Source of the DNA: a virus
Length of the DNA: 33,665 bases
Virus record (IMG/VR): IMGVR_UViG_3300043446_001059
Span: 1 to 33,665 of that record
Reading direction: 5' to 3' (one strand)
The notes beneath the pieces are model-generated. The model was not told the origin of the DNA and did not search any database. It saw only the letters and a list, made by a program, of their open reading frames with translations. Positions 484 to 29,419 of the stretch are shown here, in pieces (within the stretch, counting starts at the first letter, position 1; the number at the start of each line of letters is the position of its first letter). The position numbers and the translations under genes were made by a program.

Positions 484-512
484 TTGCTTTTGTGTTTTTG
501 ATTTTGTATAAT
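484..512 (+). promoter_or_regulatory. Sigma70-like promoter before the DUF3150/MoxR/VWA cassette
   Basis: A perfect -10 hexamer TATAAT lies at 507-512, 17 bases after TTGCTT at 484-489 (first three bases match the -35 consensus). The surrounding 483-520 stretch is strongly AT-rich compared with its neighbours. Transcription would start near 519, leaving a leader of about 30 bases before the ATG at 550, whose Shine-Dalgarno site GAGGA is at 537-541. This is the best host-type promoter in the window and suggests host RNA polymerase transcribes the cassette. Confidence 0.65.
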
Positions 513-549
513 TCTTCTGTCGATAAACCAAAACCTTGAGGAACAAAAC

Positions 550-1440
550 ATGGCTACGAATCTTTCGGCTCCGAAGAGCCAGACCACCCTTGCATCGAGC
601 GGCGTTCTTGTCACGGTCAAGATGACCACAACGACTTTGAGCGTCAGCAACAAGGCAGTCTCCGACGAGATCTGCGCGCAGAAGCGGGCCGACAACGATG
701 CGGGCAACTTCATCCAGAAGCTGATCGGCAAGAACGAATATCATCAGGCTGTCATGTCCTACCGTGCCACGATTGATGCGTGGATGAACGGGCTGGGCTA
801 TGAGTGGGGTGGCCGCTGGTACATCGTGCCGACGATCAACTATCCGCGACTGCAAGCGGAGTTCAATGCCCATAAACTTGAGTTTACAAAGCGGGTGAAT
901 GAGTTCCTTGGTGAGTACCAGAATGTGCTGGGCAATATCGCCTTCAAGCAGGGGGATATGTTCGACCGCACCAAGTACCCGACCGTGGATGAACTGCGTG
1001 ACAAGTTCAGCCTGACTCTCTCGACCATGCCTGTACCTGACAATGACTGGCGCGTTAAGGTGTCCGCTGACATAGCGCAGGATCTGCACGATCACTACCA
1101 GCACCAGCACAACGAGACGCTGATCGAGATCGGACGGAAGCAGTCTGACAAGCTCAGGGAGTTCATCACGCGCCTGATCAAGGCGTGTACGGTGGATGTC
1201 GATCAGGATGGCAAGGTCAAGCGCGGTCGATTGTATGACTCCACCATCGAGCAGGCTCTGGAGTTGTGCGATCACATTGCACAGTTCAATCCGATACAGG
1301 ATGCCAAGCTCGATCAGATCCGCGTGGAGTTGTCGAACCTGCTCCGCAACGTGAGCGTCCCTGCCTTGAAGGAGTCCGACTCCTTGCGTACCTCGACCAA
1401 ACAGAACCTCGACAGCATCCTGTCCGCTTTCGGTCGATAA
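550..1440 (+). CDS. DUF3150-like protein, partner of the MoxR/VWA pair
   Basis: This encodes a 296-residue soluble protein with no signal peptide or membrane segment. The body is predominantly helical, with conserved-looking stretches GYEWGGRWYIVP (about residues 82-93) and KLREFITRLI (about 200-209). Size, composition and position directly before a MoxR-type AAA+ ATPase and a VWA-like protein match DUF3150 proteins of phages and proteobacterial mobile DNA. I assign the family by sequence resemblance and context; a profile search would settle it. The biochemical function of DUF3150 is unknown, and here it may be an adaptor or substrate of the ATPase. It is the first gene after the promoter at 484-512 and has a good Shine-Dalgarno site. 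Its codons strongly favour C or G in third position, unlike the lower-GC genes from 3829 on. A hairpin and a second promoter-like element follow the stop codon. Confidence 0.7.
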   Translation: MATNLSAPKSQTTLASSGVLVTVKMTTTTLSVSNKAVSDEICAQKRADNDAGNFIQKLIGKNEYHQAVMSYRATIDAWMNGLGYEWGGRWYIVPTINYPRLQAEFNAHKLEFTKRVNEFLGEYQNVLGNIAFKQGDMFDRTKYPTVDELRDKFSLTLSTMPVPDNDWRVKVSADIAQDLHDHYQHQHNETLIEIGRKQSDKLREFITRLIKACTVDVDQDGKVKRGRLYDSTIEQALELCDHIAQFNPIQDAKLDQIRVELSNLLRNVSVPALKESDSLRTSTKQNLDSILSAFGR

Positions 1441-1441
1441 C

Positions 1442-1469
1442 TTGACATTGCCCCTGTGGGGAGTAGGAT
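1442..1469 (+). promoter_or_regulatory. Possible second sigma70-like promoter before the MoxR gene
   Basis: A perfect -35 TTGACA occurs at 1442-1447, one base after the stop of the preceding gene. TAGGAT at 1464-1469 (four of six bases match the -10 consensus) follows at 16-base spacing. Transcription would begin near 1476, inside the 3' half of the hairpin at 1458-1480, so the new transcript would not carry the full hairpin. The weak -10 keeps confidence modest. Confidence 0.4.
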
Positions 1470-1486
1470 TGCTGCTCCCCCGTTTT
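1458..1486 (+). terminator. Hairpin followed by T-run between DUF3150-like and MoxR genes
   Basis: GGGGAGTAG at 1458-1466 pairs with CTGCTCCCC at 1472-1480, giving nine base pairs including one G-U, around a five-base loop. CGTTTTCTC follows. The stem is strong and the T-run short, so termination is probably partial and would lower MoxR/VWA expression relative to the first gene. Confidence 0.5.
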
Positions 1487-1526
1487 CTCAATCGTTTTCA
1501 ATCATCACTTCAGAGGATAAAACATC

Positions 1527-2615
1527 ATGTCCACGTATCCCCGTGTTTCGATTTCCGACCTGCGCCGCATGATCCCCGTCATCGGCACAACCATCACTCC
1601 GCTGATCCTGTCTGAACCGGGCTGCGGCAAGACCTCGCTGCTGAACCTGATCATGCAGGACATAGGGTCTGGCTATGACGGCATCTATGTAGACGGTGGC
1701 TCGCTGAACTATGGCGACATCGGCAGCTATATCCCGGTGCATGAGACCAAGACTCTTGAGTTCTATGTAGCCAAGCTGTTCAACCTGTCCGACCCGCGCC
1801 CCAAGGTGATCATGATCGATGAGTTCACCAAGGTGCCCAAGGTGCTGCGCCCGACCATCACCCGCCTGATCCTTGAGCGTTGCGTCGGTGATATCAAGCT
1901 GCCTGATGGTTCGATTGTCATTGCCAATGGCAACCTTTCGAGCGACGGCGTGGGCGACTTCCTCGCAGCGCATGAGGGCAACCGTGTCGCTGTGTTTGAG
2001 ATGGAGAAGCCCCGTGCGCTTGATGATGCTGGCAATCCGTCTGACTGGTTGATCTGGGCTGCAGAGAACGGTGTTTCGTCTATCACCCGCACGTTCGCTG
2101 CCATGACGCCGACTGCGTTCGCCTCTTATCGTGACGATAAGAACAACACCAACCCCATGATCTTCAATCCACGTACCAACAACGTGACATTCCTGTCGCT
2201 GCGTTCGCTGACCAAGGCAGACAAAGCGTTCGTTCAGAACCGTCATATCCTTGGTGAGAAGATCCTGTTCGCAGGTCTCGCCGGTACGATTGGGGAGGCA
2301 GCAGCGCGCGCTCTGATGAACTACATCGCCATCGGGTCTAACTTGATCTCGACCGCTGATGTTGTGAAGGATCCCGACGGGGTCAAGGTGCCGACCAATA
2401 TCGGTGCGCTGTATATGATGATCTTCAACGCTGTGGAGCAGCTTGCCACGCAGGATCAGTTGACTGCGTTCATGAAGTTTGTCAGCCGCACCGGGTCGAA
2501 CGAGATCGAGGCTGTGTTCTTCTCAATGCTGGCAGCCAATGCCAAGACCGCTCGCATGGCACGAGGCAATCCCACGATCAACAAGTGGCTGCTCGACAAC
2601 CACCAGATCGTCTGA
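1527..2615 (+). CDS. MoxR-type AAA+ ATPase
   Basis: This encodes a 362-residue cytoplasmic ATPase. Walker A is EPGCGKTS at residues 30-37, Walker B is VIMIDE at 94-99, and a sensor-1-like IANGN lies at 132-136. The overall architecture fits MoxR/RavA-type AAA+ proteins, which act as ring-shaped chaperones that remodel or activate client complexes together with a VWA-domain partner. The adjacent genes supply that partner (2643-3818) and a DUF3150-like protein (550-1440). The ATG at 1527 has AGAGGA at 1511-1516. The gap to the next gene is 27 bases with its own ribosome site, consistent with cotranscription. MoxR proteins are usually about 300-350 residues, so the length is normal and all visible ATPase motifs are intact. 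The client protein is not known. Confidence 0.85.
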   Translation: MSTYPRVSISDLRRMIPVIGTTITPLILSEPGCGKTSLLNLIMQDIGSGYDGIYVDGGSLNYGDIGSYIPVHETKTLEFYVAKLFNLSDPRPKVIMIDEFTKVPKVLRPTITRLILERCVGDIKLPDGSIVIANGNLSSDGVGDFLAAHEGNRVAVFEMEKPRALDDAGNPSDWLIWAAENGVSSITRTFAAMTPTAFASYRDDKNNTNPMIFNPRTNNVTFLSLRSLTKADKAFVQNRHILGEKILFAGLAGTIGEAAARALMNYIAIGSNLISTADVVKDPDGVKVPTNIGALYMMIFNAVEQLATQDQLTAFMKFVSRTGSNEIEAVFFSMLAANAKTARMARGNPTINKWLLDNHQIV

Positions 2616-2642
2616 TCCCGACAATCTCACGAGGACTACAAC

Positions 2643-3818
2643 ATGAACGAGAATATCCACAAGGCAGATACCCTGCTCAAGCGGGCGAATGTCACGCTGG
2701 TGAATCACAAGGCGACTCGCATGTTCGCTCCCTTCATCGTGGCTGGGTCATGGAAGGTCGAGGCAGATCCTGCCAAGTGCCCGACCGCATACACGGATGG
2801 ACGGCGCGAGGTGTACGGTGCTGACTTTGTCTGCCGTCTGCCCAACGAGAAGCAGGTGCGGTTCCTTGTCATGCACGAGAACGGTCATGAGTTCCTGCTG
2901 CACATGCAGCGTCGCACCCCGGACATGAAGGCCGATCCGCAGCTTGCCAACATAGCGATGGACTATGCGATCAACGGCATGCTGGTCAAGATTGCCAATG
3001 AGTATCCCGATCTGTTGGAGATGATCCCGTCCGCGCTGTACGACGCCAAGTACGATGGCTGGTCTGTCCTGCAGATCTTCCGTGACCTCAAGCAGAACGG
3101 GGGCGGAGGGGGTGGGCAGTCTCTTGACCAGCACGATGCGTCTGATGCTGACAATGCCACGCCAGAGCAACAGGCTGTACGTGAGAAAGAGATACTCGAT
3201 GGACTGCAGCAGGGTGCGCTGATGGCAGGGCTTCTGAACGACACCATTCCGCAGCAGGTTGGTGATGCGCTCTCGCCTGTCGTTGACTGGGAGAAAGAGA
3301 CAGAAGAGTTCCTGTCCGAGGTAAGCAATGGCCGGGATGACCTGACGCTGCGACGCTATGACCGCAGGCGCGTAGCAGATGATCTGTACTACCCGGACGT
3401 AGAGTCTGAGACTCTCGGCGAGATCGTTCTCGCGCCTGATGTTTCGGCATCAACGTGCGGCGAGGTGCTGGACAAACTGATAGCTACGATGCAGGACTTC
3501 TGCCAGCGCACCAAGCCATCCAAGCTGCGTGTTCTGTGGTGGGACACTCAGGTCAACTCTGAGCAGATATTCGATGCGTCATCCTACGACACGATCAAGG
3601 ACATGCTGCGTCCGACAGGTGGCGGCGGTACGCGGGTGGGCTGCGTGTCTGACTACATCACTAAGCGTGGCATCAAGGCAGACGCTGTGCTGGTGTTCAC
3701 CGACGGGTACGTCGAGTCTCAGATTGACTGGCGCGTGACTGCGCCATCGTTGTGGCTGGTAACTGAGCGTGAATCATTCACCCCGCCAAGCGGCAGGCTT
3801 GTGCGGATCAAGCAATAA
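2643..3818 (+). CDS. VWA-like protein with N-terminal metallopeptidase-like domain (DUF2201 type)
   Basis: This encodes 391 residues in two domains. The N-terminal part carries HENGH at 78-82, an intact HExxH zinc motif of the putative metallopeptidase domain found with DUF2201 proteins. A Gly-rich linker (about 149-158) and an acidic helical region follow. The C-terminal part is VWA-like, with a MIDAS pattern of DVSAS at 266-270, a threonine at 330 after a Gly-rich turn, and TDG at 353-355. VWA proteins paired with MoxR ATPases usually bind a metal-dependent ligand and deliver clients to the ATPase. With the preceding ATPase and DUF3150-like gene this forms a complete-looking MoxR/VWA module. 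Whether the zinc site is catalytic cannot be told from sequence alone. The gene starts with CGAGGA upstream and ends 10 bases before the next gene. Confidence 0.8.
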   Translation: MNENIHKADTLLKRANVTLVNHKATRMFAPFIVAGSWKVEADPAKCPTAYTDGRREVYGADFVCRLPNEKQVRFLVMHENGHEFLLHMQRRTPDMKADPQLANIAMDYAINGMLVKIANEYPDLLEMIPSALYDAKYDGWSVLQIFRDLKQNGGGGGGQSLDQHDASDADNATPEQQAVREKEILDGLQQGALMAGLLNDTIPQQVGDALSPVVDWEKETEEFLSEVSNGRDDLTLRRYDRRRVADDLYYPDVESETLGEIVLAPDVSASTCGEVLDKLIATMQDFCQRTKPSKLRVLWWDTQVNSEQIFDASSYDTIKDMLRPTGGGGTRVGCVSDYITKRGIKADAVLVFTDGYVESQIDWRVTAPSLWLVTERESFTPPSGRLVRIKQ

Positions 3819-3828
3819 GGAGATCAAC

Positions 3829-4899
3829 ATGGACTACGAGAATCTTTTCCATCCGCACCTTTCCACGCAACAGATGCGGGAGGGTCTGATTAAATCCAAG
3901 CTGTGGCCGTTAGTGACTGGCATCGTCTCTCTGTCGGCCAATCGGCTCAAGGTGTCTAAAGTTTATTTGAACTACCAAAGCGATACAGGCGATGTGCAGC
4001 CCGTCGCGCTGCTTACTGATTCAAACGGCATCCACGCCTTCCAGTTAAAGATCAAGGACAGCCAGTTTGAACTCAACACGCCGCTATATGGCAGCGGCTT
4101 TGGTATAGCCGCATTTAATCCGGCTCTGCGAAGCAGGAATGTAAATCAGATTCTGTCGCGTGTTGCTGAAGATAGGTCTAGCCGTACCTATGGAAGAGGC
4201 CCGCGAAGAAAGGGCGACATACGGCATATCGGCGATAATCTGGATGAGTTCTTAAACCGCAACCAACGTGTATTCATCCATAATTTCTCTGTGCTTGGTG
4301 GAAAATTAGCCAGAGAAGTTAGGAGAGCAATTCCTAGCAACTCCTATAGCTATCATGAATACGAGATGATGGACTTAATTGATCTGGTAATGGCAAATGG
4401 AACGCTGACTAGCGACATGCAGCGTACAAAAGATAAGCTGGTCAACATGCGTCCGACGCTGGAGAAAAACATACGTGAGCGTGAAGAACTGAGAATGGCT
4501 GCGCTTCACAATGACAAGTGGGCAATGTATATATCAGGCTCAGGCTTTGTTTCAGTTGGCAAGATCAACCTCAAGGACTGGGTAGCCGCTTCTTTTTTCG
4601 GGGAGCGCACTGATAATGACGATGTGTATAAGTCTATAAATATCATTCGCCCATTCCAGATTTATAGATCTCTGAACGCACTCGACCCGGAGATTGCTCA
4701 CGAGATAAACGCGCGGCTCACGATGGACAAGGCTGTGCTGCAGCACAATCACCCGGACGTATTCCGTAACTCCTACCCCGAGGTCAACCCGAACAACCTG
4801 CTTCCATTTGATGATTTAGTAGACGCCACGATTGGGTATTCGACATGGACACAGGGCTGGTCACAGGAGCATCCGAAGTGGGTGATGTTCGATGCGTAA
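3829..4899 (+). CDS. Hypothetical protein, 356 aa
   Basis: The ATG at 3829 follows AAGGAGAT by about six bases and is chosen over an upstream in-frame ATG at 3769 that lies inside the VWA gene. The protein begins MDYENLFHPHLS and is soluble. It has a basic patch RSSRTYGRGPRRKG near residues 117-130 and a tryptophan-containing stretch KWAMYISGSG in the last third. A weakly similar stretch (RYAMYVDNK) occurs in the next protein, so the two may share a small domain. No family is recognised. Third-position GC is clearly lower than in the preceding cassette, which suggests a different origin. It overlaps the next gene by eight bases and could be expressed with the MoxR/VWA genes. Confidence 0.7.
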   Translation: MDYENLFHPHLSTQQMREGLIKSKLWPLVTGIVSLSANRLKVSKVYLNYQSDTGDVQPVALLTDSNGIHAFQLKIKDSQFELNTPLYGSGFGIAAFNPALRSRNVNQILSRVAEDRSSRTYGRGPRRKGDIRHIGDNLDEFLNRNQRVFIHNFSVLGGKLAREVRRAIPSNSYSYHEYEMMDLIDLVMANGTLTSDMQRTKDKLVNMRPTLEKNIREREELRMAALHNDKWAMYISGSGFVSVGKINLKDWVAASFFGERTDNDDVYKSINIIRPFQIYRSLNALDPEIAHEINARLTMDKAVLQHNHPDVFRNSYPEVNPNNLLPFDDLVDATIGYSTWTQGWSQEHPKWVMFDA

Positions 4900-5383
4900 C
4901 AAAAAACGTATTAAAAATACCGCAGTCGAAGTGGCTGGAGTCGAAGTGGCTGGAGCGGTAATGCAGAAGGCTTTTCAGCGGGACGAGAACTACCTAGATC
5001 AGATAGGCAGGCTGTCGCCCATAAGGCTTGATGCGAATCCTGACGATCAGGTTTTGTATATCAGCATCTTGGCATTACCAGATAACAGGTACGCTATGTA
5101 TGTTGATAATAAAGTTCTGTACTACACGTTGGATGAAATGCCGGACTGGGCGCGGACAAGTTTGCTTTTGGTCAAAAGTAGGAGCAGTATTGGCTACACA
5201 AGCAAGACCTATGAAGACATGTCGTTGGGTGAGTATCAAAAGCTGGTAACAGAAGTGTTCCGACCGTTCTATTCATCAGATAGCTTTGTTGACGTAGGGT
5301 TCATGCCTATACCGGGTGTTTACTGTATCGCTGTTAACGCAGACAAACTTTCACTGGAGACGAATCATGAATGGGTTCTTTGA
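4892..5383 (+). CDS. Hypothetical protein, 163 aa, with tandem VEVAG repeat
   Basis: The protein begins MRNKKRIKNT and then has VEVAG twice in tandem, encoded by a perfect 15-base duplication. The rest is a compact soluble domain containing RYAMYVDNK and PDWARTS, resembling KWAMYISG and KDWVAAS in the preceding protein. Start overlaps the previous stop, and the stop lies inside the next gene, so it sits in a tightly coupled run. The family is unknown and no catalytic motif is visible. Confidence 0.65.
   Translation: MRNKKRIKNTAVEVAGVEVAGAVMQKAFQRDENYLDQIGRLSPIRLDANPDDQVLYISILALPDNRYAMYVDNKVLYYTLDEMPDWARTSLLLVKSRSSIGYTSKTYEDMSLGEYQKLVTEVFRPFYSSDSFVDVGFMPIPGVYCIAVNADKLSLETNHEWVL
4924..4953 (+). 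repeat. Perfect 15-bp tandem duplication, in frame
   Basis: AGTCGAAGTGGCTGG occurs at 4924-4938 and again at 4939-4953. It lies near the 5' end of the 163-residue gene and duplicates five residues without breaking the frame, so it looks like a recent slippage event. Confidence 0.85.
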
Positions 5384-6200: not shown

Positions 6201-6402
6201 GCTGTTCAATGCGCCGATAAACAGTACGATAAAGGTTGACGGACAGGTTCTTGATTTCCGTCATGTCGATGGCATGTATAGTCTGTGTTTCGATTCACAG
6301 GGTAGACCTGTGCATATCGCGGCGTGGGCTGAAGTGGAGGTGCTAGATGGCGACAACGCCGGAAGCGAAAGTAAAAACGAAAGTGAAGTCGATACTGAGT
6401 AA
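6190..6402 (+). CDS. Hypothetical protein, 70 aa
   Basis: The GTG at 6190 is the likely start, within the end of the preceding gene and after a weak AAAGGT ribosome site. The in-frame upstream sequence is antisense-like low-complexity Arg/Ser and unlikely to be real. The protein MKVKLFNAPINSTIKVDGQ looks like a small beta-rich fold with an acidic tail (SESKNESEVDTE). It overlaps the nuclease gene by 56 bases. No family is recognised. Confidence 0.55.
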   Translation: MKVKLFNAPINSTIKVDGQVLDFRHVDGMYSLCFDSQGRPVHIAAWAEVEVLDGDNAGSESKNESEVDTE

Positions 6403-6658
6403 GCTAGGTGCTTACTATGCAATGCCCATCGGTACAGGATATGGACACTCTGGAGTGCCGGACTTCCTTGTCTGTCTGCAGGGCCGCTTCATAGGTATCG
6501 AATGTAAAGCAGGTAAGGGTAAGACCACCGCACTACAAGACAAACATCTTGAACAGATAGTAAGTGCTGGCGGTATTACCTATGTCATCAACGAAGAGAA
6601 TGTTAGTTGGTTGGAAAGTTGGTTAGTAAATTCACTACTGGAGAAAGACAGTGATTAA
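6347..6658 (+). CDS. VRR-NUC domain nuclease
   Basis: This encodes a 103-residue single-domain protein of the VRR-NUC branch of PD-(D/E)XK nucleases. Visible active-site residues are E6, D39 in SGVPDFLV, and E52-x-K54 in IGIECKAG, followed by the expected TALQDKHLEQI helix with its conserved Gln. The length matches stand-alone phage VRR-NUC proteins, some of which cut Holliday junctions or other branched DNA. It sits at the head of the replication and recombination module and fits a role in resolving replication or recombination intermediates. The start overlaps the previous gene by 56 bases; the stop overlaps the next GTG by eight bases. Confidence 0.9.
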   Translation: MATTPEAKVKTKVKSILSKLGAYYAMPIGTGYGHSGVPDFLVCLQGRFIGIECKAGKGKTTALQDKHLEQIVSAGGITYVINEENVSWLESWLVNSLLEKDSD

Positions 6659-8483: not shown

Positions 8484-10337
8484 GTGAGCTTTATAACTCT
8501 GGACTGGGAAACCTATTACTCCAAAGAGTTTTCGTTGTCTAATAAAATGACGACGGAAGAATACATCCGTGATCCTCGCTTTGAGGTTATTGGTGTAGGC
8601 ATCAAGGTCGATGACGAAGAGTCTCGCTGGTTTAGTGGCAGCCATGAAGAGATCAAGCAATGGCTCAACCAATTTAATTGGAGCGAGTCCGCTGTCCTTT
8701 GCCACAATACTTTATTCGATGCGCCGATCCTTGAGTGGATCTTTGATTTCCATCCGGCGTATTACTACGACACGCTCAGTATGGCGAGAGCCGTACACGG
8801 GCTTGAAGCAGGCGGGTCTTTAGCCGCGCTTGTTGAACGATACAATCTTGGTAAAAAAGGTACGGAGGTACAGAATGCGCTTGGTAAAAATCGTAGGCAG
8901 TTCAGCAGTGGTGATCTTCATGATTACGGTCGCTACTGCTGTAATGATGTGGATCTCACTTATCGACTCTTCCGTGTCCTGTCGGTAGATTTTCCACAGC
9001 TAGAGTTCGACTTAATCGATCTGACGATCAAGATGTTCACGCGCCCGCAGTTGATGGTGGATGACTTCCTCCTGACGCAGCGACTCGATGATGTCAAACG
9101 TGAGAAGGTCGAACTCCTAGCAACGCTTAAGAGCAAGCTGAGTTGTGAGACTGAGGAAGAAGTCCGCAAGTTACTTGCCAGCAACAAGAAGTTTGCGGAG
9201 GTTCTAGGGGCTTGGGGTGTAGATCCACCCCTCAAGATTAGCCCCACTACGGGTAAGGAGACGTTCGCATTCTCCAAAACTGACGAAGGGTTCTTGAATC
9301 TTCAAGCTCATGAAGATCCCTTCATTCAACAGTTGTGCGCTGTCCGTCTGGGTACTAAATCAACCATCGAGGAGAGCCGCATTGAACGATTCATTGACAT
9401 CGGTAACCGTAATGGAGGCTGGCTTCCTATTCCTCTACGTTATTACGGCGCCCATACTGGTCGTTGGTCTGGGCTGGATTCGGTCAACCTACAAAATCTA
9501 CCGAGCCGAGATAAAAAGAAGAAAGCTCTTAAGAATTCAATCATTACGCCGCCGGGTCATGTAATCATCAACTGTGACTCCAGCCAGATTGAAGCCCGCG
9601 TCTTGGCATGGTTGGCTGGACAGGAAGATGTAAATTCCCAATTCGCAAATGGCGAAGATGTGTACTCGATCTTTGCCAGCAAGATCTACAAGAAGACAAT
9701 CTCCAAGGCTAATCCCATCGAACGCTTTGTCGGCAAGACATGCGTGTTGGGTCTGGGTTACGGAACAGGCGCAGAGAAACTCAGGCATACCCTGAAGACG
9801 CAGCCACCCGGTGCCGATCTCAAGCTCGATGAATGCAAGAACATTGTCAGCATCTACAGATCGACAAACTATAAGATTCCCGAGCTATGGTCAGAGTGCG
9901 ACAAAGCACTTGATGCTATGCTTAACAATCGGGATCACGGATTCATCGACGCCAATGACACTGTCTGGGTAGGACGGCAGGGTATTCGGTTACCCAACGG
10001 ACTCTATATCCGCTATGCGAATCTGCGGTTAGACGACAACAAGATGCTATATGACTCTCGCCGTGGCCCGGTCAACATCTGGGGCGGGGCTATGGTTGAG
10101 AATATCGTACAGGCTCTGGCACGGATCATCGTGGGTCAGCAGCTTCTGTGGGTACAGGACGCAGGATATCGCGCTGCCCTGACGGTGCATGACGCAGGTG
10201 TCTGGGTTGTCCCCGAAGCAGAGAAAGATATTGCTATGGGCAGAATCACAGAGATCATGTCTCGCCCGTTGGATTGGTGTCCAACACTCCCTGTTTCCTG
10301 TGAAGCAAAGACAGGATTGCGATACGGAGATTGCTGA
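8484..10337 (+). CDS. Family A DNA polymerase with 3'-5' exonuclease
   Basis: This encodes a 617-residue replicative polymerase. The N-terminal DEDD exonuclease has D7-x-E9 (motif I), D79 in HNTLFD (motif II) and YCCND ending at D155 (motif III). The polymerase domain has motif A with D365 in CDSSQIEAR, motif B with R414, K418 and Y426 in RFVGKTCVLGLGYG, and motif C H569-D570. Motif C reads HDA where many family members have HDE. There is no 5'-3' exonuclease domain, as in T7-like phages, and the length is slightly below T7 polymerase. GTG 8484 follows AGGGGCAGG. The stop overlaps the next ATG (TGATG). It probably replicates the phage genome with the primase-helicase at 15130-17976. Confidence 0.93.
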   Translation: MSFITLDWETYYSKEFSLSNKMTTEEYIRDPRFEVIGVGIKVDDEESRWFSGSHEEIKQWLNQFNWSESAVLCHNTLFDAPILEWIFDFHPAYYYDTLSMARAVHGLEAGGSLAALVERYNLGKKGTEVQNALGKNRRQFSSGDLHDYGRYCCNDVDLTYRLFRVLSVDFPQLEFDLIDLTIKMFTRPQLMVDDFLLTQRLDDVKREKVELLATLKSKLSCETEEEVRKLLASNKKFAEVLGAWGVDPPLKISPTTGKETFAFSKTDEGFLNLQAHEDPFIQQLCAVRLGTKSTIEESRIERFIDIGNRNGGWLPIPLRYYGAHTGRWSGLDSVNLQNLPSRDKKKKALKNSIITPPGHVIINCDSSQIEARVLAWLAGQEDVNSQFANGEDVYSIFASKIYKKTISKANPIERFVGKTCVLGLGYGTGAEKLRHTLKTQPPGADLKLDECKNIVSIYRSTNYKIPELWSECDKALDAMLNNRDHGFIDANDTVWVGRQGIRLPNGLYIRYANLRLDDNKMLYDSRRGPVNIWGGAMVENIVQALARIIVGQQLLWVQDAGYRAALTVHDAGVWVVPEAEKDIAMGRITEIMSRPLDWCPTLPVSCEAKTGLRYGDC

Positions 10338-10825
10338 TGGATCTCGATATCAATACCCCGAAAGGACAGGAGTCCTTGGCGCAGGAGCGAAAGCTCCTTG
10401 AAGCGTTTAGCAGCAGCATGGGTTGGCAAATCATCGAGACTGACAAGGAACAGCCTGCTCAGGTTGATGGGTTCCTTGTTGAGAACAAGACGATTGTCGG
10501 GGTATTTGAGGCCAAGTGTCGTAAGGCAACCATCAAGCAGATGGAGAACTGGGGATCTGAATGGCTCCTCACTCACCAGAAATTGTTAGATGGGATTGAG
10601 ATAAGCAGGCGGCTGCGTGTACCGTTTTATGGCTTGATCTATCTGCTCAATGATGGGGTAGGTGTATACATAAAGCTGACTGATAACACCGGCACGTTGC
10701 TTCCTGAAGTAAAGATTCGGGTGGAGAACACCGAGACGCAGGCCACCATAAACGGTGGAAAGGTAGTCCGGGCTAATGCTTACATTGATCTGTCCACTAG
10801 CTATATCTTTGCGGTGCGTGAATAA
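10337..10825 (+). CDS. PD-(D/E)XK-like nuclease, 162 aa
   Basis: The protein shows a restriction-endonuclease-like core: E17 in the first helix, D44 in QVDGFLV, and E58-x-K60 in FEAKCRK, followed by a helix and further beta strands. This spacing fits a PD-(D/E)XK active site, so cleavage or processing of DNA is likely, but I cannot name the subfamily. ATG 10337 overlaps the polymerase stop and has CGGAGA upstream, preferred over TTG 10331. Translation is coupled to polymerase on one side and to the Cas4/RecB-like nuclease on the other, suggesting joint action in replication-linked recombination or host DNA degradation. Confidence 0.7.
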   Translation: MDLDINTPKGQESLAQERKLLEAFSSSMGWQIIETDKEQPAQVDGFLVENKTIVGVFEAKCRKATIKQMENWGSEWLLTHQKLLDGIEISRRLRVPFYGLIYLLNDGVGVYIKLTDNTGTLLPEVKIRVENTETQATINGGKVVRANAYIDLSTSYIFAVRE

Positions 10826-17976: not shown

Positions 17977-18172
17977 CGCCTACGAGGAGCCGGAATGGCT
18001 CCTGCCCTTTGAGGATATGAGGGTCGGGGATAGTTTCTTTGTCCCCACTCTCCGCCCTGCCCAGTTAGTTTACGTAATGAATACGCGAGCCAAAGTCGCT
18101 GGGGTTAAGGTATCTGCCCGTCCCGCTTGTAAAGACGGCAACCTTGGCGTCCGCGTCTGGCGTATTCGTTAA
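17966..18172 (+). CDS. Hypothetical protein, 68 aa, last gene of the left arm
   Basis: It starts inside the end of the primase gene and reads MSLDAYEEPEWLLPFEDMRV, followed by a beta-rich basic part containing GDSFFVPTLRP and a C-terminus GVRVWRIR. Small phage proteins with this GDSFFVP-type pattern occur near replication genes; the function is unknown. Its TAA overlaps the stop of the opposing 1607-residue gene in the shared bases TTAA. Confidence 0.65.
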   Translation: MSLDAYEEPEWLLPFEDMRVGDSFFVPTLRPAQLVYVMNTRAKVAGVKVSARPACKDGNLGVRVWRIR

Positions 18173-21100
18173 TCTTCGTCTTCGTCTTCTTCGCCAGCAT
18201 TAGGATCGTAGTTCTGAATCAGATACTGACGTAACTTCGGATCCAGTCGTACGCCATTGACAGACTCAAGTCCTTTCTTTACACGCTGACGGACTGACTG
18301 CGCCAGATCATCTCCACTAATAGCTTTAGTGGGGAACTTCATATTAAACCGCCGAATATTATTTATAGCATCCTGCATACCTTCAGGATCGCCAGCAGAC
18401 CTAGCGGCATAGAACTGTTCGTATAGATTAGTCTTACGCTCATTGATAGCTTTATCCGCCATCTTCTGCGCCCCGGCAGTTGCACGAGCTTCTGCAATTT
18501 TCGTGGGATTGAATCCCATAATCTGCATGAAAGACTCATACGCATTTACATCCTTTACAATCGGGACGCCGTCTTTAGTCGTAGCCCCCTCAATACCGTA
18601 GCGGATTCCCTTCATTAAATTGCGGGCGGTGACTGGCATCGCAGATTCAAAAGCCCGCTCATAATCCCCACTACCAAAATATTTAGCGGCTTGCTGATAG
18701 TTTTTGGTAAGACCATACGACGGCCCCATAAGCTGTTCCATGACAAACATTGGCAAACCGACTTCGGAAATACGCTTGGGGTCGTCCTTCCACAACAATC
18801 CACTAAAACCAGTACGAGAAGCGACATCAACCATAAATGCCTTATTCACGGCACCCTTGTATCCAAGATCTCTGAATGTCATGCGAACCCATGTGTCTGG
18901 ATCAAACGGTTCGTCATCATCGCCGAACATATCAGCCATAAGCCGCGCCAATACCATAGCCGCTCCAGCAAGCGGCAGTCCCTGAATACCGGCAAATACA
19001 CCACTCATGAGATAAACACCAGCAAGCTGCTTGCGGGCAATGTCACGAGTATCCTTATCTTCGTTCGCAAACGCGGCTTTGTACAAGCGCGAAACAAGAT
19101 AAAGCTGGTTCAGCGCAAACCTCTTGTATAGGCCAATCACCCGACCAAAGCCGGATTGGAACAGCGTGGGGCCAAGGGCGGCATGACCAACACCGTGAGC
19201 GTCCTTAACCGAATCAACAGCGTATTGGATTGCTTTGCCTGTCTCCATCCCACTTTCTTTAGCCAGATTGAACGCGGCAATCGCAGTAATCTCTCGGTTA
19301 GCCCGCTCCGAATTGGTGAAGATCCAGCTAAGGCCATGCATGAGCTTGGCCTTCTTACCCGTATAATCAGAAGTCTGCGTCCTTTGCCTTTCACCAAGAT
19401 CCACATTGCTTGCTGGAACCAAGGCACCACGATCCTTGAGTTCTTTATAAAGCAGCGCAAGTTCTCGCTGCTGCGGCGACAGGCCAGCAACTGGGTTACC
19501 GTTTTGATCAAGCAACGGCTTGCCATTAGGTCCAATAAAGGCCGTACGATCTGGAAGCGATACGCTGTTATTGTCGCGTCCACCACGGCGGAAATAATCA
19601 CCATTAGCTTTGAGGAGCGCGGTATATGCCTTAGCCGCGCCAAACTTACCGGCTAGCATTGGATATACAACAATCGGGATCTGCGTCATATTGATAAGCG
19701 CAGACGATGGGTTAGCGACTAGTGTATTGAAATACGTGAATGTATTAAGCGCACCAGCAACCTTACTGAACGATGGATTGGTTACAGCCTCAATAGACTT
19801 TATGGTATTGGCTACAACAGAGGCAGCCATATTCGTGCCATCCTGCGTGGCCTCAGCGTCAAGATCTTGTTTAGCCTTATCAAGCTCAGACATGTGCGAC
19901 AGTCTGGCAATCGAATTATTGAGTCTCGGCGCTACGTTTGAATATACCGTAAGCGCATCTTCCTCTGCGCCCAGTATGCCGAACAAACCTCCATCTCTCT
20001 TACGCGCACGGAACTGCTGACGAATAGAGTTAGACGGAAGGAACTTAAGGTACGCTTCGTAGACAGAATCGATTGTTGCCTTTGAAGCACCTTCTTTTTC
20101 TAGGGTCTTGATAATCTCTGCATACGCACCGACCGGCGGGATACCTTTTCGCAGATCGCTCAGTTTGGAATAATTCTGGAAATCAGTACCGCCTAGCTGC
20201 CTAGCTTGCGCCTGAGCAATATCTCTATCTCTCGGATTCTGGAATGCACGTACGACTAACTGACCGCTACTGTTAATATATTTGAGCCAGTAATCTCCCT
20301 TGCGGAAAAGAGGGAAGTAGACCCCCAGCTTCTCAGCTTCAAATGTTTTACGCAGCGCATCGAATGCACTCTTAGACATATTCTTACTAAGAGCTTTAAG
20401 GTATTCGTCGTGATACCTAGAATATTCATTACGCAATTCCCGATAGACCTGCCTAACAGGTTCGGGCAATGAATTCCATGAAGCAACCATTCTGTTCTTC
20501 ACAGCGTTGATTTCTGCTTCGTCTGCCGGATCTACTTGAACAAGTATTTTCCCCGTCTCAGGATCGATCTGGAACAACGTGGAATTCATGACGAGCTTAT
20601 TAAAAGTATCCAAGTGCTTTGAATACTTAGGATCCCGCATCACGTTATCCCATCGATTTATATTGTCTTCGATGCGGATCTTGCCCACGTTCGCCATAAA
20701 GATAAGATCTTCAAGAGATCGCTCAACTGTGGCTAATGAGGGCAACCTCTCCTTAAACGTCTGTACCTTCTGATGAATTGACATCAAAGGAAGAATCAGT
20801 TTTACAGCCCAATCAGGCATCTGGGAATAGATACCTAACAGCTTGTTGGCCGTCTGCGTATTTAAGACAGGCGACTTCTCAACCATATCCTTTACGCCAC
20901 TAAGAATGCTCTTTGATTCTTGTGGAGCCGCAGTTCCCCCAACAGGAGGCTGCTCTGTTGGTTCTGGTGCCGCCGCTGCCTTAGCTTCTTGACGTAACTG
21001 CTCAAATCGAGCAACGCTTTCCGGAGCAGGCTCTGCACCGGGCTGGGTAACGGTAGTAGGCGGAACGGCAGGTGCCGCAGGTATTTCAGGAGCCGCAGTC

Positions 21101-22992
21101 TCTGCAGCCGGAGCGGCGCTTACAGGTGTTTCTACAGGTGTTTCTACAGGTGTTTCTACAGGCGGCGCTGCTTCTTCAACTTGCGGGGCCTGATTAGCCC
21201 GAGCAACAGCTTCCCGAATCCGCGCCACAGTATCCATCGGCTTAGCGGACTTCTTTACTTCAAGCCCCAGATCTCTAGCGACCTTATTGATCTTGTTGGG
21301 GAACATAGCAACGCCGCCCTTATCGACCGAGGCGATAAGATCCTCAGCCGCACGGAGTTCAGCAGGCTTCTCCGACTCCATAGGCTTAGCGGCCTGCGGG
21401 GCTTCGCGGATGACTTCTTCCGGAACAGTAGGCGTCGCAGCGGGAGTCTTTCGTTCGTTATAATCTGACAACCACTTGTTGAACTCTATTTTACCTTCTT
21501 CAGTAGCACGAGAAGGGATGCCGAGCGTGGCGCGAACTTGCGTTACCCAAGCATTGCGCTCATCGGACGGGATGAACTTGATATCCTGCTTTATCTGCTG
21601 GGCAACTTGATTGACCGTAGCGCCAGTGGCAAACAGATCTTCGATCTTATTAGTGATTCCAGCCTTGTCGGCTTGGTCCCGTGAAATCTGCGCGTTGCTA
21701 TTTACCCAGCTATTAGGATCCGTGCCTACCTGTACGCGCGGGGCTTGATAAATTTCAGGAGCCGCTTCCGTCTCAGCAGGTTTAGGCGTTTCAGCAATCG
21801 GCGCAGCGGGTGTCGGAGCAACTTCTGCTTGTGCAGGCTTAGTGACTTCTTCCGGTTGGGCCGCTGTCTCAACTGGTGCTGGAGCAACACCTTCAGTAGG
21901 CGCAGGGGCGGCGGCACGGGCCGCTTCTTCAACGGGAGCAGCGGGTGCAGTTGGGGCTGCCTCTTCAGACGGAGGAGCTTCGGTTACCGATTTACCGGCT
22001 TCCTGCTCTGACATCTCAGTCCGAGTCTTGGCAAGCCTTGCGTATGCTTTATCAGACGCATTCTGAATGATGCCCTGCACACTACCGGCAGCACCACCAA
22101 GTACGAGCGCACCGATTGCGGCGCTCTTATATTCCTGCATCGCATCATCGTCAGTCAGGGATAGGCCAGCCTGCCAACGCTCTAACGCTTGCTGAGCAAC
22201 TTCCTGCGGAACTTCAAACCCGGCACCTTTTACAAAGCCTATACCGGCTCGCTTACCGTAAGTAAGCTTCCCTTCTTCTGCTGCCTTTACAAGCTTAGCT
22301 GTGGCCTGCTCAGAAGCCTTAGCTCCCTCGTCACCAACAAACTTGCCCATTCCGGGGAAAAACTTAAACAGCTTCTTAAATACGCCGACTTCAAGGACAT
22401 CAAGGCCAGACTCAGCGGCAGAAGCAATAGCAAGCTTGCCGAGATCTACGGGGTTGGGTTTCTCGCCCCGAGCAATAGCAGCTTTCTGTTCTTCGGCAAG
22501 ACGAATAGCGTTCTGTGCCGCGTATTGAGCAGCACCCACCGTACCCGCAGCAGCAATGGCCGCGAACGGCGCAACAGGAGCCGCAACAAGAGCTTCAGAT
22601 CCTGCTACTGCGCCAGCAGTTAGCGGCGCAACCATCTGGCCTAATGAGCCGCCAGCTAGTTCTTTAGTAGCTTCCCAGTAGTCCGCAAGAGACTTAGCCT
22701 TGTCATAGTCCATCCGAGCATACTTAGACTCATCAGCCTTAAGTAATGCTTCTCCAGCTTCGGGAGTCTTTTCTTTTAGAAATTTAGCAGCAGGTGCAGC
22801 AGTGCGGGCAAGCTGTGTAACCGCCTCTCCGAATGCTCCAGTAAACCCGGCCTTTTCCTTTTCAGGCTCCGGATACGGAGTCATGTAATAGCGCCGCTTT
22901 ACATAGTCAACAGCATCATCTTGTGATGCCCCAGCGGGAGTGTCTACGTCAAAAACGCGACCATCCGGGCCGGTTACCGTAAATTTTGGCAT
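18169..22992 (-). CDS. Giant polyvalent virion protein (LPD38-like), probably ejected
   Basis: This 1607-residue protein is the last gene of the structural arm. The N-terminus MPKFTVTGPDGRVFDVDTP is a small conserved domain found at the start of many such phage proteins. An Ala-rich hydrophobic stretch (about 115-160), long disordered Ala/Pro/Glu linkers (about 325-420 and 560-700) and PVET repeats follow. About 1095-1120 there is NPSSALINMTQIPIVVYP, the hallmark I use to place an LPD38-type large polyvalent domain, with two hydrophobic helices near 1320-1355. The C-terminus is acidic (NAGEEDEDED). These giant proteins are typically packaged and injected with the DNA, where they may protect it or modify the host. 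No enzymatic motif is seen. AAGG lies upstream of its ATG. Confidence 0.8.
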   Translation of the reverse strand: MPKFTVTGPDGRVFDVDTPAGASQDDAVDYVKRRYYMTPYPEPEKEKAGFTGAFGEAVTQLARTAAPAAKFLKEKTPEAGEALLKADESKYARMDYDKAKSLADYWEATKELAGGSLGQMVAPLTAGAVAGSEALVAAPVAPFAAIAAAGTVGAAQYAAQNAIRLAEEQKAAIARGEKPNPVDLGKLAIASAAESGLDVLEVGVFKKLFKFFPGMGKFVGDEGAKASEQATAKLVKAAEEGKLTYGKRAGIGFVKGAGFEVPQEVAQQALERWQAGLSLTDDDAMQEYKSAAIGALVLGGAAGSVQGIIQNASDKAYARLAKTRTEMSEQEAGKSVTEAPPSEEAAPTAPAAPVEEAARAAAPAPTEGVAPAPVETAAQPEEVTKPAQAEVAPTPAAPIAETPKPAETEAAPEIYQAPRVQVGTDPNSWVNSNAQISRDQADKAGITNKIEDLFATGATVNQVAQQIKQDIKFIPSDERNAWVTQVRATLGIPSRATEEGKIEFNKWLSDYNERKTPAATPTVPEEVIREAPQAAKPMESEKPAELRAAEDLIASVDKGGVAMFPNKINKVARDLGLEVKKSAKPMDTVARIREAVARANQAPQVEEAAPPVETPVETPVETPVSAAPAAETAAPEIPAAPAVPPTTVTQPGAEPAPESVARFEQLRQEAKAAAAPEPTEQPPVGGTAAPQESKSILSGVKDMVEKSPVLNTQTANKLLGIYSQMPDWAVKLILPLMSIHQKVQTFKERLPSLATVERSLEDLIFMANVGKIRIEDNINRWDNVMRDPKYSKHLDTFNKLVMNSTLFQIDPETGKILVQVDPADEAEINAVKNRMVASWNSLPEPVRQVYRELRNEYSRYHDEYLKALSKNMSKSAFDALRKTFEAEKLGVYFPLFRKGDYWLKYINSSGQLVVRAFQNPRDRDIAQAQARQLGGTDFQNYSKLSDLRKGIPPVGAYAEIIKTLEKEGASKATIDSVYEAYLKFLPSNSIRQQFRARKRDGGLFGILGAEEDALTVYSNVAPRLNNSIARLSHMSELDKAKQDLDAEATQDGTNMAASVVANTIKSIEAVTNPSFSKVAGALNTFTYFNTLVANPSSALINMTQIPIVVYPMLAGKFGAAKAYTALLKANGDYFRRGGRDNNSVSLPDRTAFIGPNGKPLLDQNGNPVAGLSPQQRELALLYKELKDRGALVPASNVDLGERQRTQTSDYTGKKAKLMHGLSWIFTNSERANREITAIAAFNLAKESGMETGKAIQYAVDSVKDAHGVGHAALGPTLFQSGFGRVIGLYKRFALNQLYLVSRLYKAAFANEDKDTRDIARKQLAGVYLMSGVFAGIQGLPLAGAAMVLARLMADMFGDDDEPFDPDTWVRMTFRDLGYKGAVNKAFMVDVASRTGFSGLLWKDDPKRISEVGLPMFVMEQLMGPSYGLTKNYQQAAKYFGSGDYERAFESAMPVTARNLMKGIRYGIEGATTKDGVPIVKDVNAYESFMQIMGFNPTKIAEARATAGAQKMADKAINERKTNLYEQFYAARSAGDPEGMQDAINNIRRFNMKFPTKAISGDDLAQSVRQRVKKGLESVNGVRLDPKLRQYLIQNYDPNAGEEDEDED
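21121..21162 (-). repeat. Tandem 12-bp repeat encoding PVET units
   Basis: TACAGGTGTTTC occurs three times in perfect tandem at 21121-21156 (plus strand), followed by a partial fourth unit. On the coding minus strand it gives repeated Pro-Val-Glu-Thr in a disordered linker of the giant virion protein. Units are identical at DNA level, indicating recent slippage. Confidence 0.85.
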
Positions 22993-28162: not shown

Positions 28163-29419
28163 CTATTGCGTCAAATCATAAAAGCTGATACAGCCAACCC
28201 CGTCCCCTTTGGTGGCACCGGATATGGTCCGAACCCCTAGGGTGTAGATATCGCTGACTCCGGCCAAAGATGCGCCAAGCTGCAGGTCCCAATTATATCC
28301 TGCTGGGGAAACCGTGCTGGCCTGTCCACCGCCGCCGCTGTTGGAAATATACCCAATCTGGCATATCGTGCCAGCAGCCGAAATAGCCGTGGCGGTTACG
28401 TCATACTCTACATTGGCGTCGGATCCCACCGCTCCCCACGAAGCCCCAGTCAGGGTCGGGTTCTTAATCAGCGCGATCTCGTAATTCTGCAGCGTCGTCG
28501 GCTGGAATTGTATCTGGCTTGGAATAACCACCGCTCCTAGGGCACCCGAGGCCAACCGTATAGATACAATAGGATAAAAATTAGCCGTCGTGTCAATATT
28601 ATTAAAGGCCGTAGTACGCCGCGCAATATGGCTAATTGACTCCTGCTGGTACCCGCCTTCCGATATGACCGTCGAACAGATCTGCTTCAGCGAAGCCGCC
28701 ATAGCCGAAACAGACGTAATCTCGTAACGCATCGGCAGAGTCGCCGTGGTCATATATACCGAGGTTATATCGTTCGCATTATTAAACGTGTGGCATACAT
28801 AAAATACGCCGTTAATAACAAACCCACAGCGAACCGAGCCTACGCCCAGCCACTCAAAGTCCATCCACAGAATCTGCGCCTTGGTTGGGTCAAGAGTTAT
28901 ACCGCTGGGGCCGGTACCGTTTAGCTTGTCCCCATTCCAGTCCGCCTGATTAACCGTACGGGCATCACTCACCGAACCCGTCACGTAGGAACGAAGTACG
29001 AACGAGAACGTGCCGTCTACACGCTGAAAGAAGACACCGTTCTGACTGTTGAAGTAACCAACGCGCTGTGTGAGATCGAGGCTGTTGTTGCTATCCATCA
29101 CGAACGTAGCAAGAACCAGAAGGCTTTTACCCGGCTGATACGGCATTGAGCGATAGGACTGCCGAACAACAGATCCCGCACCGCCGGAGGTGACCTCCAT
29201 CTTCACAGCCGCTTCATTGGTCAGGAACGATGTCGTGCCTGTGCCGGTCGTAGCCGTGTTGAACTGATTATCCGCTGCGTAACGGTTCTGGCTGTCAAAC
29301 AGGGTATATGGCTGGGAAATCTGCAGCCGTCCGAACGCATCCGTTGAAGTAGGCGGGAATTGTACATAGATCGGGTTATTCGACCCAGACCCATACGGCG
29401 GATAAACTGTGATCGTCAT
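28163..29419 (-). CDS. Tail or neck structural protein, beta-rich, 418 aa
   Basis: It begins MTITVYPPYGSGSNNPIYVQ and has DAFGRLQISQPYTLFDSQN (about 28-46), a pattern I recognise from structural proteins of marine and freshwater tailed phages. The remainder is rich in Ser, Thr, Gly, Val and aromatic residues in alternating strands, consistent with a lectin-like or beta-sandwich virion component that may take part in receptor contact. There is no helix-rich tape-measure character. The start overlaps the preceding gene by four bases (ATGA). Confidence 0.7.
   Translation of the reverse strand: MTITVYPPYGSGSNNPIYVQFPPTSTDAFGRLQISQPYTLFDSQNRYAADNQFNTATTGTGTTSFLTNEAAVKMEVTSGGAGSVVRQSYRSMPYQPGKSLLVLATFVMDSNNSLDLTQRVGYFNSQNGVFFQRVDGTFSFVLRSYVTGSVSDARTVNQADWNGDKLNGTGPSGITLDPTKAQILWMDFEWLGVGSVRCGFVINGVFYVCHTFNNANDITSVYMTTATLPMRYEITSVSAMAASLKQICSTVISEGGYQQESISHIARRTTAFNNIDTTANFYPIVSIRLASGALGAVVIPSQIQFQPTTLQNYEIALIKNPTLTGASWGAVGSDANVEYDVTATAISAAGTICQIGYISNSGGGGQASTVSPAGYNWDLQLGASLAGVSDIYTLGVRTISGATKGDGVGCISFYDLTQ

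Follow-up and report, generated by a model that had tools for sequence, protein, structure and literature searches.

Introduction

Rings of MoxR-clade AAA+ ATPases remodel client proteins together with partners that carry a von Willebrand factor A (VWA) domain; an acidic residue of the client serves as ligand to the MIDAS metal site of the VWA domain, and a finger of the VWA protein enters the ring pore, as described for NorQD (PMC9976466, PMC13036017). In jumbo phages a pair made of a MoxR ATPase and a metallopeptidase-vWA protein has been described and was proposed to act in virion assembly with proteolytic processing (PMC7824862), and homologues of the pair, gp24 and gp25, are described in phage N4 (PMC2784036). 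Here we analyse a cassette of three genes, encoding a DUF3150-like protein (P0001), a MoxR/midasin-type ATPase (P0002) and a DUF2201 protein that joins a metallopeptidase-like domain to a VWA domain (P0003), in the virus record IMGVR_UViG_3300043446_001059, the whole of which (33.7 kb, positions 1 to 33,665) is the window referred to below. The MoxR/VWA pair is already known, and the trio can be seen in annotated records. What we add is that the trio is constant in a large lineage of uncultured phages, that the conserved block extends to five genes, that it is linked to the replication module, that its codon bias is maintained and that plasmids carry a parallel set.

The cassette shares with RavA-ViaA, NorQ-NorD and midasin the working principle of a MoxR-clade AAA+ ATPase and a VWA/MIDAS partner, and differs from them in the metallopeptidase domain on its VWA protein and in the third partner. 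The C-terminal domains of RavA and the N-terminal domain of the ViaA type were not found in P0002 and P0003, for which a Pfam scan shows AAA-type and DUF2201 domains only. Closer are the jumbo-phage pair and N4 gp24/gp25, which have the same ATPase family and the same metallopeptidase-VWA fusion; gp25 matches PF13203 and PF09967 at 3.1e-87 and 1.4e-46, and the N4 pair lies in the early region, as does the cassette. Unlike the cassette, N4 has no DUF3150 partner, and its ATPase and VWA proteins are only 21% and 25% identical to those of the window. The original prediction held that the role of such genes in phages is not established, which is true as far as experiments go, but published proposals do exist, among them those for the jumbo-phage pair and for viral CobS/CobT (PMC8651126), besides the N4 homologues.

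Results

Conservation and linkage of the trio

Scanning IMG/VR with P0001 yielded 78 relatives (31-41% identity) and a scan with P0003 one more, giving 79 loci. Of these, 73 contain the ATPase and 64 the VWA protein; the others stop at or close to the gene in question. The trio is thus complete in 64/64 loci that are long enough, the VWA/MIDAS gene adjoining the MoxR gene in every one. The adjacency of the three genes on the plus strand of the window is confirmed, as is the conserved neighbourhood in related phages that the original prediction presupposed. Gene order is DUF3150-MoxR-VWA except in five loci (L063, L064, L068, L069 and L070), in which DUF3150 comes last. One scan of genome contigs found a single relative, on a 7.6-kb contig of an actinobacterial metagenome-assembled genome, and a host is not assigned on this basis.

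Profile comparisons indicate that the conserved block is longer than the trio and takes in the next two genes (3829-5383), five in total. Aligned by hhalign with the downstream gene families of the relatives, p4 matches a family of 52 relatives (probability 88%, E about 3e-6, 251 columns) and p163 a family of 47 (94%, E about 1e-7, 104 columns), and both families occupy the same position downstream of the VWA gene as in the window. Other open reading frames of the window, used as controls, reach at most 0.9% against the p4 family and 0.5% against the p163 family. Neither p4 nor p163 received a name from the Pfam or PHROG libraries. Beyond p163 the relatives carry a VRR-NUC-like nuclease (52 loci, at a median of 2.2 kb after the VWA gene), a helix-turn-helix/kinase-type gene (34) and a DNA polymerase (36), and the neighbourhood as a whole consists of replication genes, including an exonuclease and a helicase; in many relatives the large terminase lies upstream on the opposite strand. 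In the window, too, the trio stands within the early/replication cluster, and the virion genes are on the other strand. The trio thus appears to head an early/replication transcription unit, "early" being judged from the neighbouring genes.

The 948-aa primase of the window is present in 21 of 22 longer trio-bearing records, the exception being a 31-kb fragment, whereas the 418-aa virion protein is found in full in only three of the 22, although several of these 22 records span 50-64 kb. Records of more than 40 kb that carry the virion protein (G042, G045, G046) have neither primase nor trio, and the same holds for phages DSL-LC04 (61.5 kb, virion protein 69% identical) and HMO-2011 (55 kb). 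Both long records retrieved by the primase contain the trio; most other primase records are truncated upstream. This distribution of genes ties the cassette to the replication module and shows it to be independent of the tested virion module. That virion modules are swapped around a constant trio argues against at least the tested virion protein as client. Evolutionary distances among the trio proteins correlate at 0.87-0.94; they correlate equally highly with the DNA polymerase, and so are not counted as evidence of coevolution specific to the trio.

The three proteins

The N-terminal part of P0003 matches PF13203 (DUF2201_N, putative metallopeptidase; 5.6e-20, 72.5 bits against a cut-off of 23.2) and its C-terminal part PF09967 (DUF2201, VWA; 1.5e-10, 41.7 bits against 26.4), both above the Pfam gathering scores and together placing it in DUF2201; it matches phrog_1314 at 3e-67. 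All 58 full-length relatives keep HExxH as well as every element of the MIDAS (DxSxS, T and D), and the predicted joining of HExxH to a MIDAS-type VWA domain is borne out; both motifs are conserved over viral, plasmid and N4 homologues, apart from one plasmid copy in which HExxH is lost. D107, downstream of HExxH, is invariant across viral, plasmid, MinM2 and N4 sequences and may be the third metal ligand. The AlphaFold2 model (pLDDT 82.6) matched VWA folds at Z about 11-12, and VWA matches filled the result list of the fold search. For the N-terminal metallopeptidase domain, a match to an M48 peptidase was marginal (0.0084). The label "HNH endonuclease" borne by this family in phrog_1314 and RefSeq looks wrong: no HNH match was obtained, and the domains are those of a DUF2201 metallopeptidase and a VWA protein.

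P0002 matches the Pfam AAA family PF00004 (E=1.2e-4) and the ATPase family phrog_1297 (4.1e-39). In its Walker A motif the initial Gly of the canonical GxxGxGKT is replaced by Ser, and the PGxGK core is conserved in the alignment. G32, G34, K35, D98, N136, R153 and R226 are invariant in an alignment of viral, plasmid, MinM2 and N4 sequences, and P0002 thus shows the features of the MoxR/midasin clade: AAA+ core, Walker A and B, sensor-1 Asn and arginine residues. A profile built from P0002 and its plasmid, MinM2 and N4 homologues finds the AAA+ region of midasin as its best solved structure (3.9e-27); a profile of viral members only retrieved zero PDB chains at E<=0.01. Motifs and family matches therefore agree with the predicted MoxR ATPase with intact Walker A and B.

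P0001 by itself has no Pfam match. PF11348 (DUF3150) is matched by 18 of its 32 aligned relatives, at best at 5.9e-5, and the gathering score of 24.9 bits is not reached by any viral, Burkholderiales or MinM2 record tested; as a control, a protein of IncA plasmid pRA1 scores 299 bits. Compared by hhalign with a set of Burkholderiales plasmid and phage MinM2 proteins, some of which carry the NCBI name DUF3150, the viral P0001-family profile matches over its full length (281 columns, E=2.6e-40), and the single P0001 sequence matches at E=3.3e-21. With its AlphaFold2 model (pLDDT 90.6), the top viral structure in BFVD bears the name DUF3150 (E=1.2e-15). Against the PDB, Foldseek gave zero matches at E<=0.001, and the best VIA-align score, Z 8.6, was not counted as a fold match because helical bundles reach such values by chance. 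Judged by these profiles, P0001 is best called DUF3150-like: it is homologous to proteins that bear the name, but lies far from the core of the Pfam family; the predicted kinship thus holds as clear full-length homology, but falls below the Pfam gathering score. A search of the open-licence literature found zero papers on DUF3150. Weak matches to phage major capsid models by 4-5 of the 32 family members (best 6.7e-5) were taken as helical-sequence noise.

Homologous sets on plasmids and in other phages

MoxR, DUF3150 and DUF2201 genes occur side by side on plasmids of Simplicispira, Rhodovastum, Burkholderia, Cupriavidus and Variovorax, and a DUF3150 homologue is present in 44 plasmid records. 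Among 50,697 phage records searched by tblastn, a DUF3150 homologue was found only in the cyanophages MinM2, Pag-Yong1 and Pra-JY27, which likewise hold all three homologues together. These plasmid and cyanophage sets differ from the window in their order, MoxR-DUF3150-VWA, and in sequence, their MoxR and VWA proteins being only 19-28% identical to those of the window; homologues of p4 and p163 were not found in them. The MinM2 set lies near a primase, and the RHOApc set near a toprim-domain gene.

The IncA plasmid pRA1 encodes an AAA ATPase with Walker A/B motifs, bet, exo, a bona fide DUF3150 protein and a VWA protein of 593 aa in which HEAAH and DMSSS are present. The architecture is that of the window, except that bet and exo lie between the AAA, DUF3150 and VWA genes. 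The sequence link between its DUF3150 protein and the viral family is marginal (hhalign 43%, E=2.5e-4), and its VWA protein has no significant match to the window-type VWA profile. In the integrative and conjugative element SXT, which is related to pRA1, the operon that begins at s089 encodes a system for recombination independent of RecA (PMC4344509); transfer fell at most 10-fold when bet, exo, s067, s068 or s070 was deleted (PMC2791158). Some of these s-genes may be the DUF3150 or VWA genes.

Codon use and expression signals

As predicted, codon use in the trio is more GC-ending than elsewhere: the G+C content at third codon positions (GC3) is 0.71-0.76, whereas it is 0.44-0.61 for the window's remaining long genes. 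Compared with flanking genes that encode 200 aa or more, the trio is higher in GC3, in NNY codons ending in C and in NNR codons ending in G in 50/50 relatives spanning a wide GC range, and in 44 of the 50 also in CGY arginine codons. The bias recurs in MinM2 (0.93-0.95 against 0.74) and in RHph_TM3_14A, and was not found in the N4 ATPase/VWA pair. Because it recurs in 50/50 relatives, the bias is maintained and not a sign of recent transfer, and recent horizontal acquisition was rejected as its source; the preferred reading is that strong translation has been selected for.

The host-type promoter assigned to the cassette did not hold up. The site exists, yet its -35 box agrees at three of six positions and falls below the scan threshold, 12% of first-order-resampled versions of the stretch reach an equal score, and the two strands of the window together contain TATAAT 15 times. 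Among 31 non-redundant relatives an upstream site of 10/12 is reached by five, against 1.1 expected, and four of these represent one related motif. TTGACT-17-TATACT, common to the related loci L018, L020, L027 and L053 at 92-127 nt upstream of DUF3150, is a better sigma70-like site; in some copies its -35 box overlaps an operator-like TTGAC/GTCAA inverted repeat. In the gap between DUF3150 and MoxR (1442-1480) a perfect TTGACA overlaps a terminator-like hairpin of nine pairs; counts for this region are at or below shuffle expectation, a terminator-like site occurs in this gap in only 4/74 relatives, and a conserved terminator was rejected.

Other features of the window

Downstream of the cassette (Table 1), a 164-aa protein at 10331-10825 (+) scores 24.5 bits for the phage endonuclease model PDDEXK_14, against a Pfam cut-off of 25. 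On the minus strand, a 1607-aa protein (18169-22992) resembles giant phage proteins labelled "DarB-like antirestriction", and others like them, over their C-terminal parts (phrog_10089, 8.9e-69) and is probably an ejected virion protein. The virion protein at 28163-29419 (-) shares 69% identity with its DSL-LC04 counterpart and about 45-48% with proteins of HMO-2011 and of cyanomyoviruses; judging from these matches, it belongs to a virion module common to unrelated replication modules.

Table 1. Features of the cassette and its surroundings in the window
Feature	Position	Strand	Basis
P0001, DUF3150-like protein, 296 aa, two long helices	550-1440	+	IMG/VR relatives, hhalign, AlphaFold2/BFVD
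P0002, MoxR/midasin-type AAA+ ATPase, 362 aa	1527-2615	+	PF00004, phrog_1297, midasin profile match
P0003, DUF2201 protein, 391 aa, N-terminal HExxH metallopeptidase-like and C-terminal VWA/MIDAS	2643-3818	+	PF13203, PF09967, phrog_1314
Walker A, SEPGCGKTS	1611-1637	+	sequence; G32, G34, K35 invariant in alignment
Walker B, KVIMIDEF	1803-1826	+	sequence; D98 invariant
HExxH motif, HENGH	2874-2888	+	kept in 58/58 full-length relatives
MIDAS, DVSAS, completed by T330 and D354	3438-3452	+	invariant in alignment
p4, conserved companion, 356 aa	3829-4899	+	hhalign to family of 51-52 relatives
p163, second conserved companion, 163 aa	4892-5383	+	hhalign to family of 47 relatives
VRR-NUC-like nuclease	6347-6658	+	homologue in 52 relatives; family member matches phrog_93 endonuclease
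Family A DNA polymerase, first large replication gene downstream	8484-10337	+	phrog_17 6.7e-86; in 36 relatives
Primase-type replication protein, 948 aa	15130-17976	+	phrog_8841/2478/10514; in 21/22 trio-bearing records
Promoter-like TTGCTT-17-TATAAT (original prediction)	484-512	+	not above chance
Promoter-like TTGACA-16-TAGGAT over terminator-like hairpin (1458-1480), DUF3150-MoxR gap	1442-1480	+	promoter/terminator scan

Discussion

We favour, with somewhat less than even confidence, the reading that the cassette encodes an early-expressed ternary AAA+ remodelling machine, possibly proteolytic, whose client belongs to genome replication or recombination or to the host and not to the virion. 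The machine itself is suggested by the 64/64 complete trios, by the conserved catalytic and MIDAS residues and by the profile match to midasin. The ATPase would form a ring, on which the VWA domain would dock and bring the metal site of its MIDAS up to an acidic client residue; ATP hydrolysis would then twist or pull the client, as in NorQD and midasin, after which the HExxH domain may clip it. The DUF3150 protein, always present in this lineage, is likely a dedicated adaptor or the immediate client. As it is the replication module, rather than the virion module, that accompanies the cassette, its final target would most likely lie in replication or recombination of the phage genome, for example in freeing a replisome or a recombination complex, or in a host counterpart. 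Independent elements lend support to a replication role, since comparable sets lie by genes of DNA metabolism: the primase of MinM2, the toprim-domain gene of RHOApc, and Bet/Exo of pRA1. A wider proposal is that mobile elements of several kinds, from cyanophages and the present phage lineage to plasmids of Burkholderiales and, divergently, IncA plasmids, keep a single, so far undescribed ternary DUF3150-MoxR-metallopeptidase-VWA system for remodelling or proteolysis to run their DNA replication or recombination; we consider it less likely than not.

Several observations weigh against the favoured reading. The primase (26% identical) and DNA polymerase of Pseudomonas phage Rollin are related to those of the window, yet the phage gave zero matches to the ATPase profile, and one fragment (L107) carries the primase with 13 kb upstream of it, yet no trio, so that replication is not strictly dependent on the trio. 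Given that the distances within the trio track the DNA polymerase as well as each other, the link to the replication module may reflect shared descent only. N4 and RHph_TM3_14A have the MoxR/VWA pair without DUF3150; a search for a hidden copy in these two, KPP25 and DSL-LC04 reached an hhalign probability of 5.5% at best. In the Variovorax WDL1 plasmid homologue (L088:7962-9260), HExxH is lost and MIDAS kept, so that proteolysis may be dispensable in some copies.

The trio could instead serve counter-defence or host takeover, the machine dismantling or cleaving a host complex such as a defence system, RNA polymerase or a nucleoid protein. The early-region position, codon use suited to high translation, the HExxH domain kept throughout the full-length relatives and the presence on plasmids, which are likewise exposed to host defences, would all fit; yet no host partner is known, all three proteins are strongly conserved, unlike fast-evolving anti-defence genes, and a PADLOC search of the three returned nothing beyond one weak match in the P-loop region. 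We regard this role as rather unlikely, though to be taken seriously. Less likely still is a chaperone-protease for virion assembly or maturation, as put forward for the jumbo-phage pair by analogy with Acidianus two-tailed virus (PMC7824862). Proteases are common in phage head and tail maturation, but the cassette lies inside the early/replication cluster opposite to the virion genes, the tested virion protein is rare among trio-bearing records while long records with it and without the primase lack the trio, and homologous sets occur on plasmids that make no virion.

Two further proposals start from gene layout. The order third component-MoxR-vWA, seen in most relatives, is that of the VMAP-MoxR-vWA ternary conflict systems (PMC7159879), and carriage by mobile elements would suit an exclusion or abortive system directed against competing elements. 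However, P0001, lacking any Pfam match, has none to VMAP, P0003 ends at its VWA domain with no variable C-terminal effector domain, and the trio is conserved throughout one phage lineage instead of being patchy, which leaves such a system improbable. The AAA+ plus VWA/MIDAS layout is also that of the CobS/CobT cobaltochelatase subunits, which were proposed for viral AAA/VWA pairs to hijack host CobN and so raise cobalamin, viral cobT often carrying the label peptidase (PMC8651126). P0003, however, matches DUF2201_N and DUF2201, with no match to CobT models at E<=1 in a Pfam scan, its HExxH is intact across the full-length relatives and a third, DUF3150-like protein is always present; we consider this origin very improbable.

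Machines of the MoxR-VWA kind are common, and clients are known for only a few of them. Those of phages and plasmids are small, are not needed by the host and lend themselves to clean knockout; they thus offer a direct route to a client and to learning if it is cleaved by the metallopeptidase fused to the VWA domain. If a replication role is true, it would correct labels now in use, namely HNH endonuclease (PHROG/RefSeq), CobT and virion-maturation chaperone. If the link to replication is true, the cassette would represent an ATP-driven remodelling step in the replication or recombination of mobile elements, so far undescribed.

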